64,000 bases of DNA, taken from IMG/VR virus record IMGVR_UViG_3300009011_000001, positions 184,575-248,574 of that record; one strand, written 5' to 3'. A program made the translations under genes and the position numbers. Every line of letters starts with the position of its first letter. The stretch's first letter is position 1. Origin of the DNA: a virus. The notes under the pieces were generated by a model, which was given only the letters and a program-made list of their open reading frames with translations, had not been told where the DNA came from and did no database searches. Shown piece by piece: positions 394 to 6,123 of the stretch.

Positions 394-822
394 ATGGATA
401 ACAAGGCTGAAGCAAAAAGGCTGATTGAACTTGCACTAAAAGACCCACGGCTTGGACGACCAGCTCTGACGGCAGATATCAACCAACTGGAATGGATCTA
501 CCTCGAAGGCAAACCAGTCGGCTTCTTCACCCCTAAGCTTGAACCAGATGGACGATACAGAACCGGCACCATCTTTATTGAACCATCTCACCGTGGTAAA
601 GGATTAGCTACAGATGTAGTAAAGAAGTATTTTGACGACGGTGATAAACCGGGCCGTGCTTGGATTGAACCCAGTAATCTGGCTAGCCAAACTATCTTCA
701 AACGAGCAGGCTTTTATAAGTCTGGTCGCGTCACTAACTCGAAAGCAACATCACGAATGTTTGAAGAATGGGTGAACAAACCTATCCCTCCTCTTGTGAG
801 TCGACCAGTGTTAGGTTGGTGA
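394..822 (+). CDS. GNAT-family N-acetyltransferase
   Basis: A 142-residue protein with the GNAT acetyl-CoA binding signature: a beta strand IFIEPS leads into HRGKGLATDVVKKYF (R67-G-K-G-L-A, motif A), then WIEPSNLASQTIFKRAGF (motif B, residues 90-107). The family transfers acetyl groups from acetyl-CoA to amines of small molecules or proteins; the substrate cannot be read from sequence. I chose the ATG at 394 because AGAGGAG lies just upstream; an earlier in-frame ATG at 367 lacks such a site. It is followed by the structured RNA at 853-1068. Jumbo phages often carry GNATs, sometimes to modify host proteins, but that role here is inference. Confidence 0.8.
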   Translation: MDNKAEAKRLIELALKDPRLGRPALTADINQLEWIYLEGKPVGFFTPKLEPDGRYRTGTIFIEPSHRGKGLATDVVKKYFDDGDKPGRAWIEPSNLASQTIFKRAGFYKSGRVTNSKATSRMFEEWVNKPIPPLVSRPVLGW

Positions 823-852
823 TAAGTTACATTATATGTGTAGACAGATCAC

Positions 853-1068
853 GCCCATCCATCCTGCTCCTGGATGGGCTACTTGTGGTCAGGACATTCC
901 CCCTGACCGATGGTCATTGCCATTCCTGGTCGTGTGGCAGTGACTGCTAAGTATCACTTAGCCTACAGGGCAATCGTCGTGGGAGTGGATTGCTCTGTAG
1001 GGTGTGTGGTGTGTGGCGATGGTGGTGAGCGGAAAGCATAGGGCGGAGCGCAAGCTCCGCCTTTATGC
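853..1068 (+). ncRNA. Candidate structured RNA, copy A (five hairpins plus terminator)
   Basis: The 328-base gap after the acetyltransferase gene is almost entirely foldable. Consecutive hairpins are: 853-861 with 871-879 (9 bp); 887-893 with 902-908 (7 bp); 913-922 with 935-944 (10 bp, one wobble); 946-952 with 956-962 (7 bp); 963-975 with 988-1000 (13 bp, one wobble). A terminator-like hairpin at 1036-1068 closes the unit. The same order of elements recurs at 4528-4733 with conserved loop and linker sequence but different stem bases, which argues for selection on RNA structure. It lies 82 bases before the next gene, so it could be a separate small RNA or a 5' leader. I do not recognise the family. 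Confidence 0.55.
1036..1068 (+). terminator. Hairpin terminator
   Basis: GGCGGAGC at 1042-1049 pairs with GCTCCGCC at 1054-1061 around a GCAA loop; flanking GCATA and TATGC extend the stem. It closes structured RNA copy A. The 3' side reads CTTTATGCCG rather than a long T-run. Confidence 0.6.
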
Positions 1069-1130
1069 CGTTATAGTTCGATTTAAAAAACTCTCAGTAA
1101 TACATACTGGAACTGACTACACACCACCCT

Positions 1131-1144
1131 GTCCTTTGGAGGAC
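1131..1144 (+). promoter_or_regulatory. Shine-Dalgarno hairpin, copy 1
   Basis: GTCCTTTGGAGGAC forms a 5-bp stem (GTCCT with AGGAC) and a TTGG loop, with the Shine-Dalgarno GGAGG inside the hairpin. The ATG at 1151 follows six bases later. This is one of seven copies in the window, all directly upstream of a + strand start codon. Confidence 0.75.
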
Positions 1145-1150
1145 TTAGTA

Positions 1151-1489
1151 ATGCAAAAAGCAGATCTCTTGCTCGTCGTGGTTTATGTTGGCTTTATTCT
1201 CTATCGCCAGCATCGTCAGTTCAGCACCCTGCTGTCGCAATCGGTGGGCGGTTGGGCAGGACTCAAGTTCGCCGCTTCAATGCTTTCGGCGTTGTTCTAC
1301 ACGAGCATGGCTAACAACTCGCACTACAGGAACGGGTTCTTAGCATCGTTTATCACCACGCCGATTGTGCTCTACTCCATCGGGTTCCATTACACCCTTG
1401 GGGCTAACCTCTTTTTCGCTGCTGAGTCGACGGCGTTTTTCGTAGCCGGCTGGCATCTTGTCCGCAAACACCAGATGAACACTTTCTGA
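1151..1489 (+). CDS. Small multi-pass membrane protein
   Basis: A 112-residue hydrophobic protein with about three likely membrane segments: LLLVVVYVGFILY near the N-terminus, FAASMLSALFYTSMA in the middle, and a longer stretch from ITTPIVLYSIGF to FVAGWHLV. It ends in a basic tail. The start at 1151 is fixed by the hairpin-type ribosome binding site at 1131-1144; longer in-frame readings would run through the terminator at 1036-1068. It heads a tight run of four small genes, three with an N-terminal membrane segment. I recognise no family; an envelope-associated accessory role is only inferred from topology. Confidence 0.7.
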   Translation: MQKADLLLVVVYVGFILYRQHRQFSTLLSQSVGGWAGLKFAASMLSALFYTSMANNSHYRNGFLASFITTPIVLYSIGFHYTLGANLFFAAESTAFFVAGWHLVRKHQMNTF

Positions 1490-1499
1490 GGATTTCACT

Positions 1500-1862
1500 A
1501 TGTTAGTTTTCGTTCGTAATCCGTGGGTCCAAGGCATTGCCACCGCATCGGGCATTGCCGCAACGTTGGCTGTGGCTAGCTACTTCATTCTGAAGAGCGA
1601 GAAGAAAATTGCATCTGAGCCATCGCCGGTTTCTGAAGCAGACCGCAAGCAACGCGCTGAACTCGAGGGGAACATCAAACATCTCCTCCACCTCATGTCT
1701 AAGCAACGTGAGAAGCGTCCGATGTTCCTCACCAGTGAGCAGGCTCTCAGGGTCCGCTACCTGACCAACAAGATTTCGTATAGCTACGTCAACATACCGA
1801 TGCTGGAAGAAATCCAGATCGAAATCAAAAACATTTACGACAGTGCTGAAAAACGCACTTAA
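1500..1862 (+). CDS. Hypothetical protein with an N-terminal membrane anchor
   Basis: A 120-residue protein with one membrane segment near the N-terminus (GIATASGIAATLAVASYFIL, about residues 12-31), then a charged, mostly helical domain rich in Lys, Arg and Glu. GAGGA precedes the ATG at 1500. Its layout closely resembles the next gene (anchor plus helical domain), so the two may be diverged copies or partners. No known family recognised. Confidence 0.7.
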   Translation: MLVFVRNPWVQGIATASGIAATLAVASYFILKSEKKIASEPSPVSEADRKQRAELEGNIKHLLHLMSKQREKRPMFLTSEQALRVRYLTNKISYSYVNIPMLEEIQIEIKNIYDSAEKRT

Positions 1863-1872
1863 AGGAATTGCC

Positions 1873-2205
1873 ATGTCAGTAGAAGCTGCTATCCGCATTG
1901 CGTGTGGTACTGTCTGCGTTGCCGCAGGTCTGTACGGTACTTACAAGTTCTGCAAGTTCTTCAACAGCGTTTCACGCAAACTCCAGATTGTTCAACGGAT
2001 CCAGACCAACGTTGAACAGCTGCACGTCGGCGACGCTGCTCTTGAAGGAGACCAGCTTCGTCAATTCATGATGGAGTTGGAATCGGTAAAGGATGTCCTG
2101 GAGCAGATCCAATTGGACTTCAGTTCCATTACCGAGAACGATCTTCTCAATGCCCTGAACACGTCCACCAAAATGTTCGTAACCTACGGTATCGCTAAGG
2201 AGTGA
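1873..2205 (+). CDS. Hypothetical membrane-anchored helical protein
   Basis: A 110-residue protein. The N-terminal half-segment IRIACGTVCVAAGLYGTYKF can span a membrane; the rest is predicted helical with many Glu, Gln and Leu residues, compatible with a coiled coil. AAGGA stands just before the ATG at 1873. It sits 10 bases after the previous anchored protein and overlaps the translation signal of the next gene. Function unknown. Confidence 0.7.
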   Translation: MSVEAAIRIACGTVCVAAGLYGTYKFCKFFNSVSRKLQIVQRIQTNVEQLHVGDAALEGDQLRQFMMELESVKDVLEQIQLDFSSITENDLLNALNTSTKMFVTYGIAKE

Positions 2206-2207
2206 GC

Positions 2208-2609
2208 ATGAGCAGTGTTAATGCAAGCGATCTTGAACAGCTGGCTATCATCGAAGCATTGATTGATAGCCAGGCTTCCCGTAACCAACCCAGCGGTGGA
2301 AACATCACCGCTGCTCGCTTTACTTGGGCCGGCGTCTTCGTAAATCCCTCGAAGAAAGAGTACGCGTTCAAGATCTACACGAAACCTGAAGACGATCCAC
2401 GTCCTGGGTGGTTGTACACGATCAACGAACACCGTCTCTCTGACGGCAAGGTCTTATCGACCGAAGTATCTGTAGGTGGTCTGTTGCCCTTGGTTAAGGA
2501 CAACGAGGTCATCGACATGATAAAAGCATTCAACGTAGACAGAAAAGGGTCGGTGTTGGTATCCGACCTTTGGGATCTGGAAACCGGTAAACACTACCCG
2601 ATGGTTTAG
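2208..2609 (+). CDS. Hypothetical protein, possible distant single-domain relative of the structural paralogue family
   Basis: A 133-residue protein. I chose the ATG at 2208 over a GTG at 2202 because AAGGA is six bases upstream. The stretch ITAARFTWAGVFV resembles FTEASFTWAGLPVV in the paralogue encoded at 17275-17820, and the layout (IEALID at the start, then a beta-rich part) fits the first domain of that family. The match is short, so relationship is tentative. It is the last gene before a strong terminator. Confidence 0.6.
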   Translation: MSSVNASDLEQLAIIEALIDSQASRNQPSGGNITAARFTWAGVFVNPSKKEYAFKIYTKPEDDPRPGWLYTINEHRLSDGKVLSTEVSVGGLLPLVKDNEVIDMIKAFNVDRKGSVLVSDLWDLETGKHYPMV

Positions 2610-2624
2610 CAGCCATTGGTAACT

Positions 2625-2660
2625 GCTGTGGGGAAACCCACAGCGGCACTCCTTTTTATT
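2625..2660 (+). terminator. Intrinsic terminator
   Basis: GCTGTGGG at 2625-2632 pairs perfectly with CCCACAGC at 2637-2644 around a GAAA tetraloop, followed by CCTTTTTATTTT. It ends the operon of small genes starting at 1151. Confidence 0.8.
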
Positions 2661-2705
2661 TTCTACAAATACACCCTTTCTTATAAGTTCCTGGAGCGCA
2701 CTTAA

Positions 2706-3470
2706 ATGAAGTACCTTCACCCGGAAGATGCGGAAAGAATCGAGATCCTGAAAAACAAAAGCGATCGGGAGCTGGTTCCTGCAGAGTTGTTGATTAAACG
2801 TGTGATCAATTTCGACCACACTTACGAATACAGTGATGACATCAATGTCTATCACACCTGGTCTGCCAAAGAAAAAGAACTGCGCCAAGACCTGCTGGAA
2901 AGTGACTTGATCAATGCGGAGGTGAAAGCCCTCGCACTCAAGGCACTCAAGAATACAGTCAGTCACGAACCACTGCAGCAGTTGGTCGACCGGTATCCGA
3001 ACATCAAGTACGAGCACTACGGTCCAACTGGCTTCACCAAACTTCTCGAAGAAAAAGGTGATGAATACACCGAGCGCGCAATTGAGACGCTACGAGAACT
3101 TGGAAGTCTGATTGATGAATTACCTCCGGCATTATATCCGGGTTGGTTCATCATGACTCCGGCGACGCCGCACCAGAAGATCATGCGCGACTACGCAAGA
3201 AGTGACACCGGCCGCGATTCGTGGTACGGGTACGCATTACCGAAACCGCTCCACGATCGCATCTGGAACTTCTTCGACAAATGCATGTTCCAGAAAGAAG
3301 GTTGGAAAACCATTGTTGAAACCTACGAGTTGGCGAGAGCCAAATCTGCAGGCGTAAACTATGGTCTCCAGTACAACGTATCTGATGACGCACCGGCTAA
3401 ATACACCGGTACTCCAGCAGCTTGGTTGTACGTCCATGGGCCTGGTAAAGTCTACAGGTTCTACGTCTAA
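2706..3470 (+). CDS. Hypothetical protein, 254 aa
   Basis: A soluble, charged protein without a motif I recognise. The first two thirds are helical and rich in Glu and Lys; the C-terminal third is aromatic, with several Tyr and Trp residues (for example WYGYALPK and AAWLYVHGPGKVYRFYV). The ATG at 2706 follows a CTGGAG ribosome binding site. It lies alone between two terminators (2625-2660 and 3477-3518), so it is probably transcribed from its own promoter. No membrane segment. Confidence 0.65.
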   Translation: MKYLHPEDAERIEILKNKSDRELVPAELLIKRVINFDHTYEYSDDINVYHTWSAKEKELRQDLLESDLINAEVKALALKALKNTVSHEPLQQLVDRYPNIKYEHYGPTGFTKLLEEKGDEYTERAIETLRELGSLIDELPPALYPGWFIMTPATPHQKIMRDYARSDTGRDSWYGYALPKPLHDRIWNFFDKCMFQKEGWKTIVETYELARAKSAGVNYGLQYNVSDDAPAKYTGTPAAWLYVHGPGKVYRFYV

Positions 3471-3476
3471 GCACAG

Positions 3477-3518
3477 GCCCACGGTTCGCCGTGGGTTTGC
3501 TTACCTTCTTTTTTTTTG
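3477..3518 (+). terminator. Intrinsic terminator
   Basis: GCCCACGG at 3477-3484 pairs with CCGTGGGT at 3489-3496 (one wobble) around a TTCG tetraloop; a run of nine T residues follows at 3509-3517. It ends the single-gene unit 2706-3470. Confidence 0.8.
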
Positions 3519-3784
3519 TTTGTAGTGGCAAAATAATACTACTATGTAACACGAGCTCTTTCACAAAACTTAAAGCGAGTCATTATAGTAAGTCGTTTAC
3601 GGACGACAGCTCCCTGCTGACAAGCAAACTTACAGACGGAAGTCTGACCTGGGGTTTTGTTCATCGAACATTGCCTGCCTTGTAGATGGCGCGATAGGCG
3701 AAGTAAAGCGCTCAAAGGACTCTTTGTTTTTTATCGGCTTTGAAAACGATGAGCGACATCTATTCGGCTTAACAAAAGAAATGA
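3519..3784 (+). other. Non-coding interval with weak hairpins, no gene seen
   Basis: About 265 bases with no credible reading frame. Visible elements are CAGAC (3633-3637) with GTCTG (3642-3646) around a GGAA loop, and CAAAG (3713-3717) with CTTTG (3722-3726) followed by TTTTTTAT, which could be a weak terminator. CGATA at 3692 could pair with TATCG at 3732. The interval is bounded by two strong terminators, so a small untranslated transcript is possible. It does not share sequence with the two-copy structured RNA. Confidence 0.35.
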
Positions 3785-3816
3785 CATAGAGGCAGGGCGC
3801 ACGCCCTGCCTCTATG
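3785..3816 (+). terminator. Long CATA...TATG hairpin
   Basis: A perfect inverted repeat of 15 bases (3785-3799 with 3802-3816) with the outer CATAG/CTATG pair shared by many hairpins in this window. It precedes the gene at 3860. Confidence 0.65.
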
Positions 3817-3859
3817 CTGTGTGTATGCATGCACTCCAAATCAAAACAGGTAATAAGAA

Positions 3860-4489
3860 ATGAAACTTTGGGACTGGCTAACAGGCAGAAACACAGCGGC
3901 AGTAATTCCGGCAAGTTCTAAGGTGGAAGAAGTTCCAACCGAGAACTATGTACCTAACCCCATCCGTCTGGTCGTGGTGAGTCTTCCTCCAGACATGTCG
4001 CCTGATCTTGCCAATGCTTTTACGGCAATGGCGGAACAGAGCGTCAGTAAAATCGGCGGCTTCGGCGGCGTATCGTGGGCTGATCCAAAAGGCGTTAAGA
4101 AGGGCGACGTACCGCTCAAGTACAAACGCACTCACCAGCCTTACATCGTCATCCGTGAGATCAAAGGGAAGGTCTACGAGACCACCTTGAACGTCGTGAT
4201 CGATCAGTTCCTGAACAACCGTACTCTGAACGACATTGGCCAATCTGGTATCAATGTGTTTGCCTATGAGTACGATGAAAGCAGTAACGACATCATCGAC
4301 GCGTGGTGGCTGCCATCTGTCTTCTACGGTCGTTCCGAAGTGGACGGTCGTCAGGATGCTCGGTTGATCTACCTCGATATCTTCGGTGAGGTTCGTGAAG
4401 GCGAGGAGTACAAACGCATTGCCCAAGAGGTCCATGCACACCGGCTTATCAAGTCGGATCTTGCCTTGGCCCTTACCGCTACTTTGTAA
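3860..4489 (+). CDS. Hypothetical protein, 209 aa, paralogue of the gene at 5437
   Basis: A soluble protein of unknown function. Its central stretch INVFAYEYDESSNDIIDAWW aligns with FDLLAYELSEDQTTVIDAWK in the protein at 5437-6123, followed in both by an aromatic loop, so the two look like diverged copies. The N-terminus carries WDWLTGR and a linker rich in Pro, Val and Glu before the folded part. ATG at 3860 follows GGTAATAAGAA; the ribosome binding site is weak. It is followed by structured RNA copy B. Confidence 0.65.
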   Translation: MKLWDWLTGRNTAAVIPASSKVEEVPTENYVPNPIRLVVVSLPPDMSPDLANAFTAMAEQSVSKIGGFGGVSWADPKGVKKGDVPLKYKRTHQPYIVIREIKGKVYETTLNVVIDQFLNNRTLNDIGQSGINVFAYEYDESSNDIIDAWWLPSVFYGRSEVDGRQDARLIYLDIFGEVREGEEYKRIAQEVHAHRLIKSDLALALTATL

Positions 4490-4527
4490 CATCTTACTTC
4501 TCGTACCTATAATTTGAAAAGAAACTT

Positions 4528-4733
4528 CTCTCCAGGGCAAATGAAGAGAGTCTTCGACCACCTGATCCTGGAAGGTCGAATCGGGCGATGGGTGTGGTCA
4601 ATGCTCGGCGGTGCATTGACTTCACAAAGGACAGTTAGGCGTGTAGAGCTTAGCCGTCAGCCACCTACGGGCATAGGTGGTTGGTGGATGGGCGTTGCAC
4701 TCCTGGGGCGGTACTGGCGCCCGACGGGGCGCC
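4528..4733 (+). ncRNA. Candidate structured RNA, copy B
   Basis: The 313-base gap between genes folds like 853-1068. Hairpins: 4528-4532 with 4546-4550; 4553-4559 with 4574-4580 (TTCGACC/GGTCGAA); 4597-4604 with 4613-4620 (8 bp); 4634-4640 with 4648-4654 (7 bp, two wobbles); 4659-4667 with 4674-4682 (9 bp, one wobble); terminator-like 4716-4733. Against copy A, the segment CCTGATCCTGGA (4561-4572) matches CCTGCTCCTGGA (863-874) at 11 of 12 bases, CTTAGCC recurs at the same relative place, and stems are kept by compensating changes. Copy A has one extra hairpin (887-908). A short frame through this region cannot be coding given the structure. Confidence 0.55.
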
Positions 4734-4740
4734 TTTTATG
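4716..4740 (+). terminator. Hairpin terminator
   Basis: GGCGCCC at 4716-4722 pairs with GGGCGCC at 4727-4733, followed by TTTTATGCCGC. It closes structured RNA copy B, as the hairpin at 1036-1068 closes copy A. Confidence 0.65.
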
Positions 4741-4802
4741 CCGCAATAGTATGAAGATCCCATGTTGAGATCTTTGTTCTACCAATCGCCGAGGATATAT
4801 CC

Positions 4803-5327
4803 ATGAAGGTCAATATCACGCTGACGCCACTGGCTAACGTATTGGCGGCTATCAACGCTGCTAACACCGCAACCAGCACCAACATCACCGAGTCGCAAGT
4901 TACTGCGGCTGCTCCAACCACCGCTGCCGGTACCGGCGGTCGTAACACCAGCGTTGTTCTGACCGGTATCGATGGTCAGGGCATCGAAGGTTCCCGTACC
5001 TTCTCGTACACCCGTCAATCTCTGGCTTCTGGTGCCGTGGCCTCCACCGCTCCTGCCAGCGTTCTGGTCGCTGAAGGCGACAATCAGGCTGCTTCGGTAA
5101 CCAAGGTTGCCACCGCTCTGGGCCTGTTGGCTTCGGAATTTGACGCCAGTGCCTACACCGCACCGGTCGACCAAACCACTCCTGGTACCGTGACCATCAC
5201 CGCAAAAACCAGCAGCTTGCTGTACGTCGGCAGCCGCGTTGTTCCTCTGAACTTCGCTGACGAAGACGTAGCCTTCGCTACCGTGGCTCCGGTGACTGAC
5301 GCCGACGGCTTCGACCCTGAAGCCTAA
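4803..5327 (+). CDS. Structural paralogue family protein, two-domain form
   Basis: A 174-residue beta-rich, Ala/Thr/Val-rich protein. It shows the family pattern: a short helix LANVLAAINAAN, then RNTSVVLTGIDGQGIEGSRT and YTRQSL (domain 1), then a second domain ending in TVTITAKTSSLLYVGSRVVP. Its end FATVAPVTDADGFDPEA is nearly identical to the end of the protein at 6648-7193 on the other strand, so these two are close paralogues. The sequence is rich in GCT/ACC/GTT codons, suggesting high expression. I infer a virion surface or tail component; the family resembles what I recall as DUF7941 in jumbo phages, unverified. Confidence 0.65.
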   Translation: MKVNITLTPLANVLAAINAANTATSTNITESQVTAAAPTTAAGTGGRNTSVVLTGIDGQGIEGSRTFSYTRQSLASGAVASTAPASVLVAEGDNQAASVTKVATALGLLASEFDASAYTAPVDQTTPGTVTITAKTSSLLYVGSRVVPLNFADEDVAFATVAPVTDADGFDPEA

Positions 5328-5335
5328 GTAACAAA

Positions 5336-5365
5336 CATAGGGCGGGGCTTCGGCCTCGCTTTATG
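5336..5365 (+). terminator. Hairpin terminator
   Basis: GCGGGGC (5342-5348) pairs with GCCTCGC (5353-5359, one wobble) around a TTCG tetraloop, with outer CATA/TATG at 5336-5339 and 5362-5365. It follows the structural gene at 4803-5327. Confidence 0.6.
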
Positions 5366-5436
5366 CCGCAAGGTAACTAACTACAGAAAGCGGGTATCAG
5401 ATAGTAACCACAAACCCAAAAGCCCCTGGAGTAGTT

Positions 5437-6123
5437 ATGTCTATCAATCAAGAAAAAGCTCGCCCTTACGTTCCTGGTGTTATCGTTGTAAAGATCGTCA
5501 AGGTGCCGGAAATCCTGACAAAAAACGAAGTGCTACACAAAGCTTTCGTCAACCTTTTCGAAAACCAGTCCAGAAACATCGGTAGTTTCAATACTGCTAG
5601 TTATCTGCAACCAGTCGAATTGATGGCGGCGCTGCCAAAGCTCGTTACTGAAGATGGTCAGGAGACCGGGCTGGATATCGAAATCCCCGAATTGAAAAAC
5701 AAAGCGACCAGTCGCTTGCTCAGGGCAATCACCAAACTTTGCTTCGTTGGCCGCACGCCAACCGAAGTGAAACAGGATGGTTTCGATCTCCTCGCATACG
5801 AACTGTCAGAAGATCAAACCACCGTTATCGACGCCTGGAAGTTCACAGGGTTTACCTTCCCGAACGCGCTGCCCCACAGCAGCGATTACGACTCCAACAT
5901 GGCTTTCAACCCTGATGCTCCGGCAAGCATCAAGGTGCCGGTGATTGACAAGGATCTCGATTACAGCACCCTCAACCTGATCGGCAACATGCACAACAAC
6001 GACAATGTCCTGTTCGAAGCCATGAAGCAATTCGTGTTCGAACTCAAAAAGTACGGTAAAGACACCTCTGTCGTCGAAAACGACTTGGCGAACCTTCAGG
6101 GCGCTGGCAAGAAAGATGCGTGA
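5437..6123 (+). CDS. Hypothetical protein, 228 aa, paralogue of the gene at 3860
   Basis: A soluble protein of unknown function. Residues around FDLLAYELSEDQTTVIDAWK correspond to the same block in the 3860 gene. The C-terminus is helical and charged. The ATG at 5437 follows CCCCTGGAG. The stop overlaps the start of the next gene (ATGCGTGA), so the two are translationally coupled. Confidence 0.65.
   Translation: MSINQEKARPYVPGVIVVKIVKVPEILTKNEVLHKAFVNLFENQSRNIGSFNTASYLQPVELMAALPKLVTEDGQETGLDIEIPELKNKATSRLLRAITKLCFVGRTPTEVKQDGFDLLAYELSEDQTTVIDAWKFTGFTFPNALPHSSDYDSNMAFNPDAPASIKVPVIDKDLDYSTLNLIGNMHNNDNVLFEAMKQFVFELKKYGKDTSVVENDLANLQGAGKKDA

Follow-up and report, generated by a model that had tools for sequence, protein, structure and literature searches.

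Few noncoding RNAs are known from phiKZ-like phages. In phiKZ itself, Grad-seq revealed such RNAs originating from the 3’ untranslated region (UTR) of PHIKZ298 (about 100 nucleotides, nt) and from the 5’ UTR of p40 (about 180 nt) (PMC8545117), and no passage about noncoding RNAs turned up when the text of a 2025 review on nucleus-forming phages was searched (PMC12908238). Larger structured RNAs discovered by covariation are represented in Rfam by the ROOL, GOLLD and OLE families; of these, ROOL and GOLLD are found in phages as well as prophages and make use of kissing loops (PMC12286853). Here, we analyzed a stretch of 64,000 nucleotides (subsequently designated the window), corresponding to bases 184575–248574 of the 248,574-base virus record IMGVR_UViG_3300009011_000001 (G000); all coordinates are window positions. 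Based on the genes for the major capsid protein, a DnaB-like helicase and the phage polymerase, the source of the window was placed among the phiKZ-like jumbo phages. We describe an intergenic element at positions 853–1068, termed RNA A, which quite probably represents a noncoding RNA gene in its own right, specific to a phiKZ-like clade, composed of five docked hairpins and acting in trans late in infection.

Like RNA A, the Grad-seq RNAs of phiKZ are structured and noncoding, and they come from a giant phage related to the one studied here (PMC8545117). By description the two are set apart, as the phiKZ RNAs derive from UTRs and contain two stem-loops, whereas RNA A has a promoter motif of its own, five hairpins and a loop-loop contact. 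With ROOL, GOLLD and OLE it shares the discovery by covariation. Unlike RNA A, however, ROOL env-120 comprises 659 nt and many GOLLD RNAs exceed 800 nt, and these RNAs are often located near tRNA islands (PMC12286853). In the window, ARAGORN detected neither tRNA nor tmRNA, and the ROOL, GOLLD and OLE models matched neither the window nor eight loci bearing members of the RNA A family, which further distinguishes RNA A from these families. The same window and loci yielded no match reaching the family gathering score with any of the 4227 models of Rfam 15, and a permissive Rfam search of positions 780–5440 returned weak microRNA matches only.

The original prediction had described two intergenic gaps ending in terminator-like hairpins, namely RNA A and a second element at 4528–4733 (RNA B), located 82 and 69 bases upstream of a gene, respectively. 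Both gaps, their hairpin ends and the gene starts at 1151 and 4803 were confirmed. The RNA A region folds better than dinucleotide-preserving shuffles (z = -6.4; 0 of 200 as good), and single-sequence folds of family members gave z values of -2.9 to -8.1. The following elements make up its core:

853..879, plus strand: hairpin P1; 853–861 paired with 871–879, loop 862–870 with a conserved CUC; 8 of 9 pairs double-changed in the family
887..908, plus strand: hairpin P2; 887–893 paired with 902–908, loop 894–901; double changes at 5 of 7 pairs
913..944, plus strand: hairpin P3; 913–922 paired with 935–944; double changes at 8 of 10 pairs
946..962, plus strand: hairpin P4; 946–952 paired with 956–962; double changes at 3 of 7 pairs, 98% of cells paired
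963..1000, plus strand: hairpin P5; 963–975 paired with 988–1000, loop 976–987; double changes at 12 of 13 pairs
895..987, plus strand: P2–P5 loop-loop contact; CAUUCCC 895–901 with GGGAGUG 981–987, complementary in every member, swap test

Relatives were needed to evaluate this structure. The closest named phage shares 33.5% capsid identity with the phage of the window; a DNA search of named phages gave no match for positions 780–5440, and a protein search with a neighbouring gene was likewise without match. As two neighbour proteins retrieved nothing from IMG/VR either, the major capsid protein was used as bait instead. This yielded a close relative with 87% capsid identity (G002, IMGVR_UViG_3300034691_000040), which carries RNAs A and B at the same places, as well as further relatives with 53–58% capsid identity. 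In the close relative, 45 of the 46 RNA A pairs are kept despite many stem differences, several of them by changes on both sides. Covariance models were then trained on RNA A of the window and the close relative (R1), on six sequences (R2) and on ten rows, nine of them distinct (R3). R1 matched RNA A in four further records (E 1e-15 to 1e-6) and, with filters switched off, weaker candidates in three more; R2 matched four loci outside its training set (E 9e-13 to 4e-8); and R3 matched G006, which was outside its training set, at E 1e-29. Altogether, 11 IMG/VR records, all belonging to one phiKZ-like clade, contain RNA A (G000, G002, G003, G004, G006, G007, G010, G011, G012, G013 and G014), namely the nucleus-forming giant phage of the window and ten uncultured relatives; among named phages, the clade had no isolate. 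Neither R2 nor R3 detected RNA A in the syntenic regions of more distant records. Whole records at greater distance and the named phages MW735835, LucasX and Goslar were searched with R3, with no match at family level. When R1 was run on whole records, it overlooked members recovered by direct search, and its negative results were not used. A DNA pattern for hairpin 4 retrieved the close relative and five contigs scoring at noise level against the RNA A profile, and nothing from bacterial genomes. At the search sensitivity used, the family seems confined to this clade.

Covariation was counted on an alignment of the nine distinct RNA A sequences. Changes on both sides occur at 36 of the 46 pairs, and 97.1% of cells are paired; when the partner is slid by 1–3 columns, pairing falls to 31–45%. 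None of 500 shuffles was as good on any of five measures. Hairpin 4 shows fewer double changes than the others, and all five hairpins are supported by the alignment. An alternative explanation is chance, i.e. GC-rich intergenic DNA that looks structured but has no RNA function: terminator-rich gaps fold somewhat, and word matches between A and B are in part due to chance. For RNA A, this possibility is close to nil, since it is contradicted by the compensatory changes and by the co-varying loops described below. Translation of the region was also considered and rejected, as the members share no open frame: depending on the member, the longest one that ends inside RNA A has between 15 and 66 codons. 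Thus, the claim that RNA A belongs to a real structured RNA family of no known class, with stems that pair despite sequence differences, was borne out by the covariance-model searches and the empty Rfam search: neither of the outcomes that would have spoken against it, i.e. absence from relatives or stem changes that break pairing, was encountered. The data strongly support RNA A as a structured RNA founding a family that is absent from Rfam.

A tertiary contact had escaped the original prediction. In every RNA A member, the loop of hairpin 2 is complementary to that of hairpin 5, while their sequences change: CAUUCCC/GGGAGUG in the window, UUCCC/GGGAA in the close relative, GCUCUC/GAGAGC in L083 and L084, AUGUCCUC/GGGGACAU in L087, GUCCUC/GAGGAC in L091, L088 and L089, and CCCCGG/CCGGGG in L085, where one base of each falls within the modelled stem. 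The best helix score was 17.67 for the native combinations as compared to 11.35 when loops were swapped between members, and 1 of 5000 permutations was as good; because the nine include two near-identical pairs, the effective n of this test is below nine. Among 21 loop and linker combinations tested by swapping, none but P2 x P5 came near that result; a contact of the P1 and P3 loops was considered as well, and swapping gave no support for it.

The loop complementarity fits pairing within one molecule or between two alike. The packaging RNA (pRNA) of phage phi29, which is comparable in size to RNA A, also possesses complementary hairpin loops. In analogy to the phi29 pRNA ring and to the ROOL and GOLLD cages, RNA A might form multimers through intermolecular pairing of the P2 and P5 loops, serving virion assembly or another late step. 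Two loops with 6–8 complementary, co-varying bases and the virion structural genes near the RNA A gene would agree with this, as would the kissing loops, intermolecular ones included, that stabilize the ROOL and GOLLD multimers (PMC12286853). However, the complementarity would look the same for intramolecular pairing, a single loop pair was found, and there was no Rfam match; moreover, phi29 belongs to an unrelated phage group. A multimeric, pRNA-like arrangement, which takes its evidence from loop complementarity, is therefore putative, and we consider it unlikely.

Next to the core, the following features define the gene context of RNA A:

831..838, plus strand: late-type promoter motif of RNA A, ATTATATG, with TATG at 835–838; predicted transcript start G838
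1036..1067, plus strand: terminator-like end of RNA A; hairpin rich in GC with TTTATG after it, assigned by sequence
397..822, plus strand: acetyltransferase (GNAT) gene 5’ of RNA A (PHROG 1249, E 7.7e-6)

A TATG, mostly in the form TATTATATG, is located 12–41 bases upstream of the RNA A core in all ten members inspected. Since the late promoters of phiKZ carry a TATG whose G is +1 (PMC4666361), we infer a late transcript starting near position 838. A terminator-like end follows 59–80 bases downstream of the core in 7 of the 10 members. In G006, a second TATATG motif was noticed just downstream of the core (L110:1668–1680), and the RNA A transcript may be different in this subgroup.

Some points weigh against a standalone RNA of this kind. 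In single-sequence folds an extended hairpin 5 competes with hairpin 4, as a switch would need, and a terminator-like hairpin at the end of RNA A precedes a gene by 82 bases; RNA A could hence be the 5’ leader or attenuator of that gene, with a conditional terminator-like end and a signal-sensing fold. In 7 of 9 members, the acetyltransferase gene adjoins RNA A on its upstream side, and processing from its mRNA is conceivable. RNA A would then be a 3’ UTR product that regulates in trans after processing, as proposed for the PHIKZ298 noncoding RNA of about 100 bases in phiKZ (PMC8545117). Furthermore, no terminator was found up to 190 bases from the core in L088, L089 and L110, and the transcript may be longer there. 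Finally, fitting the alignment to the structure gives the latter an advantage, and the clade is represented by metagenomic contigs only. The fitting is offset by the very large gap in pairing and by the strong scores of loci outside the training sets.

Among the members, the genes downstream of RNA A belong to different families while RNA A persists; a downstream gene class common to most members, as expected for a cis-regulatory leader, was not found. The conserved promoter motif directly preceding RNA A, the usual terminator and the non-conserved downstream gene favour a standalone RNA over a leader, which appears improbable. Hence, where the original prediction offered a small RNA or a leader, the former is preferred. 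In L088 and L089, RNA A is present without an upstream acetyltransferase gene, which together with the varying downstream gene argues against both a leader and a 3’ UTR product. In addition, the late-type promoter motif lies between the stop of the upstream gene and the RNA in every member inspected, so that we give an origin from the acetyltransferase mRNA as little credit as the leader.

Starting from the observed structure, loop complementarity, promoter motif and terminator context, and clade distribution of RNA A, we infer polymerase, timing, independent transcription, action in trans and a partner as follows. The non-virion RNA polymerase of the phage would most likely initiate at the late TATG promoter, and an intrinsic terminator would release a transcript of roughly 230–280 bases. 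This RNA would fold into five adjacent hairpins, of which hairpins 2 and 5 would be docked through a loop-loop helix of about 6–8 base pairs. The resulting compact shape would leave the conserved loops of hairpin 1 (CUC) and hairpin 3 (GG..GU) free, and late in infection RNA A would most likely act in trans by offering these loops to a protein or RNA partner. RNA A provides a concrete and testable RNA gene, which combines clade-wide occurrence and a five-hairpin core with a tertiary contact that co-varies and with conservation of the promoter motif. Its start site and loops are predicted and a model to search for it is at hand; its hosts are phages that keep transcription apart from translation.

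RNA B was analyzed in the same way and is described by the following features:

4528..4733, plus strand: RNA B; hairpins at 4553–4580, 4597–4620 and 4634–4688, terminator-like hairpin 4716–4733 followed by TTTTATG
4627..4688, plus strand: part of RNA B matching the A-family model (P4–P5); R3, 18.6 bits

RNA B folds better than most dinucleotide-preserving shuffles (z = -3.8; 1 of 200 as good). It is kept in the close relative (L020), where 12 pairs are double-changed and z is -4.2, indicating that RNA B is a conserved structured RNA, too. Instead of a TATG, RNA B is preceded by TTAC...TATAAT. According to the original prediction, one family is present in two copies, A and B, which fold into the same hairpin series, with conserved segments kept in order. 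Aligned with each other, however, A and B are only marginally more similar than shuffled sequences, with 53–73 of 500 shuffles reaching the score under strict and 4–13 of 500 under loose scoring; the two sequences therefore could not decide the question and relatives were required. In the close relative, the shared word CCTGNTCCTGGA reads TCTTGCTCGCTGGA in A and CCTAATCCTGTA in B, CGATGG is lost from both, GGTCANTGC is changed in both, and CTTAGCC is kept in A only. As most words are absent from A or B of the relative, word matches were rejected as evidence. The stem GTTAGGC/GCTTAGC proposed for B competes with a longer hairpin, and one of its pairs is broken in the relative. Moreover, RNA B and its counterpart in the relative lack hairpin 2 by alignment and fold, and no loop contact equivalent to P2–P5 was seen in RNA B by eye. 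The notion of one hairpin series with ordered segments was not confirmed in this form.

What remains of a common origin is a partial match. At E values up to 10, the A-family model has a single second match in the genome of 248,574 bases, namely RNA B, with 18.6 bits for RNA B and 22.4 bits for its counterpart in the relative; both A and B are hairpin series with a similar terminator. On the other hand, the match does not span the full length but is confined to hairpins 4–5, and a background match elsewhere reached 16.6 bits with R3; E-values of these short-calibrated models are rough. Two copies of one family, with B strongly diverged, are thus weakly supported, and we lean slightly against this view. 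A distant, partial relationship is plausible: RNA B is a possible divergent, partial paralogue of A rather than a demonstrated second copy, and this second structured RNA gene may share an ancestor with A through the P4–P5 part. In the gap upstream of the gene for a 174-aa virion protein, which is the place of RNA B in the window, other structured DNA unlike B is found at L083:6749–7035, L084:8997–9288 and L087:12130–12599.

Between A and B, a third noncoding RNA gene is located, which was not listed by the original prediction:

3546..3825 (about), plus strand: RNA C; boxA-like GCTCTTTCACAA at 3555–3566; kept in L020, L083, L084, L085, L087 and L091; z = -3.9

RNA C consists, in this order, of a TATG start, a boxA-like GCTCTTTNACAA near the 5’ end, in most members the element AGTAAG-hairpin-CAGCTCCCT (AGTAAG-hairpin-CAGCTCCCTG in the window) and a terminator-like end. 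The RNA C pattern gave 32 IMG/VR matches, 7 with and 25 without the boxA-like element; the seven comprise five records that also hold RNA A and two contigs identical to G010 around the site. The boxA-like element presumably resembles the boxA of bacterial rRNA operons. With bacterial rRNA boxA and lambda nut boxA, RNA C shares the GCTCTTTNACAA near its start; unlike these, the putative boxA of RNA C belongs to a short noncoding RNA that has a terminator of its own. Lambda NutL RNA, when strongly transcribed, was reported to titrate Nus factors (PMC4807359). By analogy, the element could possibly be an antitermination signal or a Nus-factor decoy. A wider scenario seems improbable, in which an island of three noncoding RNA genes comprises RNA C as carrier of a boxA decoy or antitermination signal and RNA A as an RNA that multimerizes via the loops of hairpins 2 and 5, for virion assembly or a different late step of the infection. 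A long T tract ending in G (3508–3520) precedes RNA C and is also found at the C loci of relatives. In a more distant jumbo phage, a boxA-like TGCTCTTTTACAATTTAG follows shortly after TATAGTGTGTAGAG (L100:17174–17185), and this site is possibly a distant counterpart of RNA C.

Genome-wide, G000 contains 23 TTTATGYYG sites, 19 of them immediately downstream of a hairpin, with examples in the window at 1062–1070, 4735–4743 and 5360–5368. At the sites that follow hairpins, terminators appear to pass directly into a TATG late-promoter-like motif.

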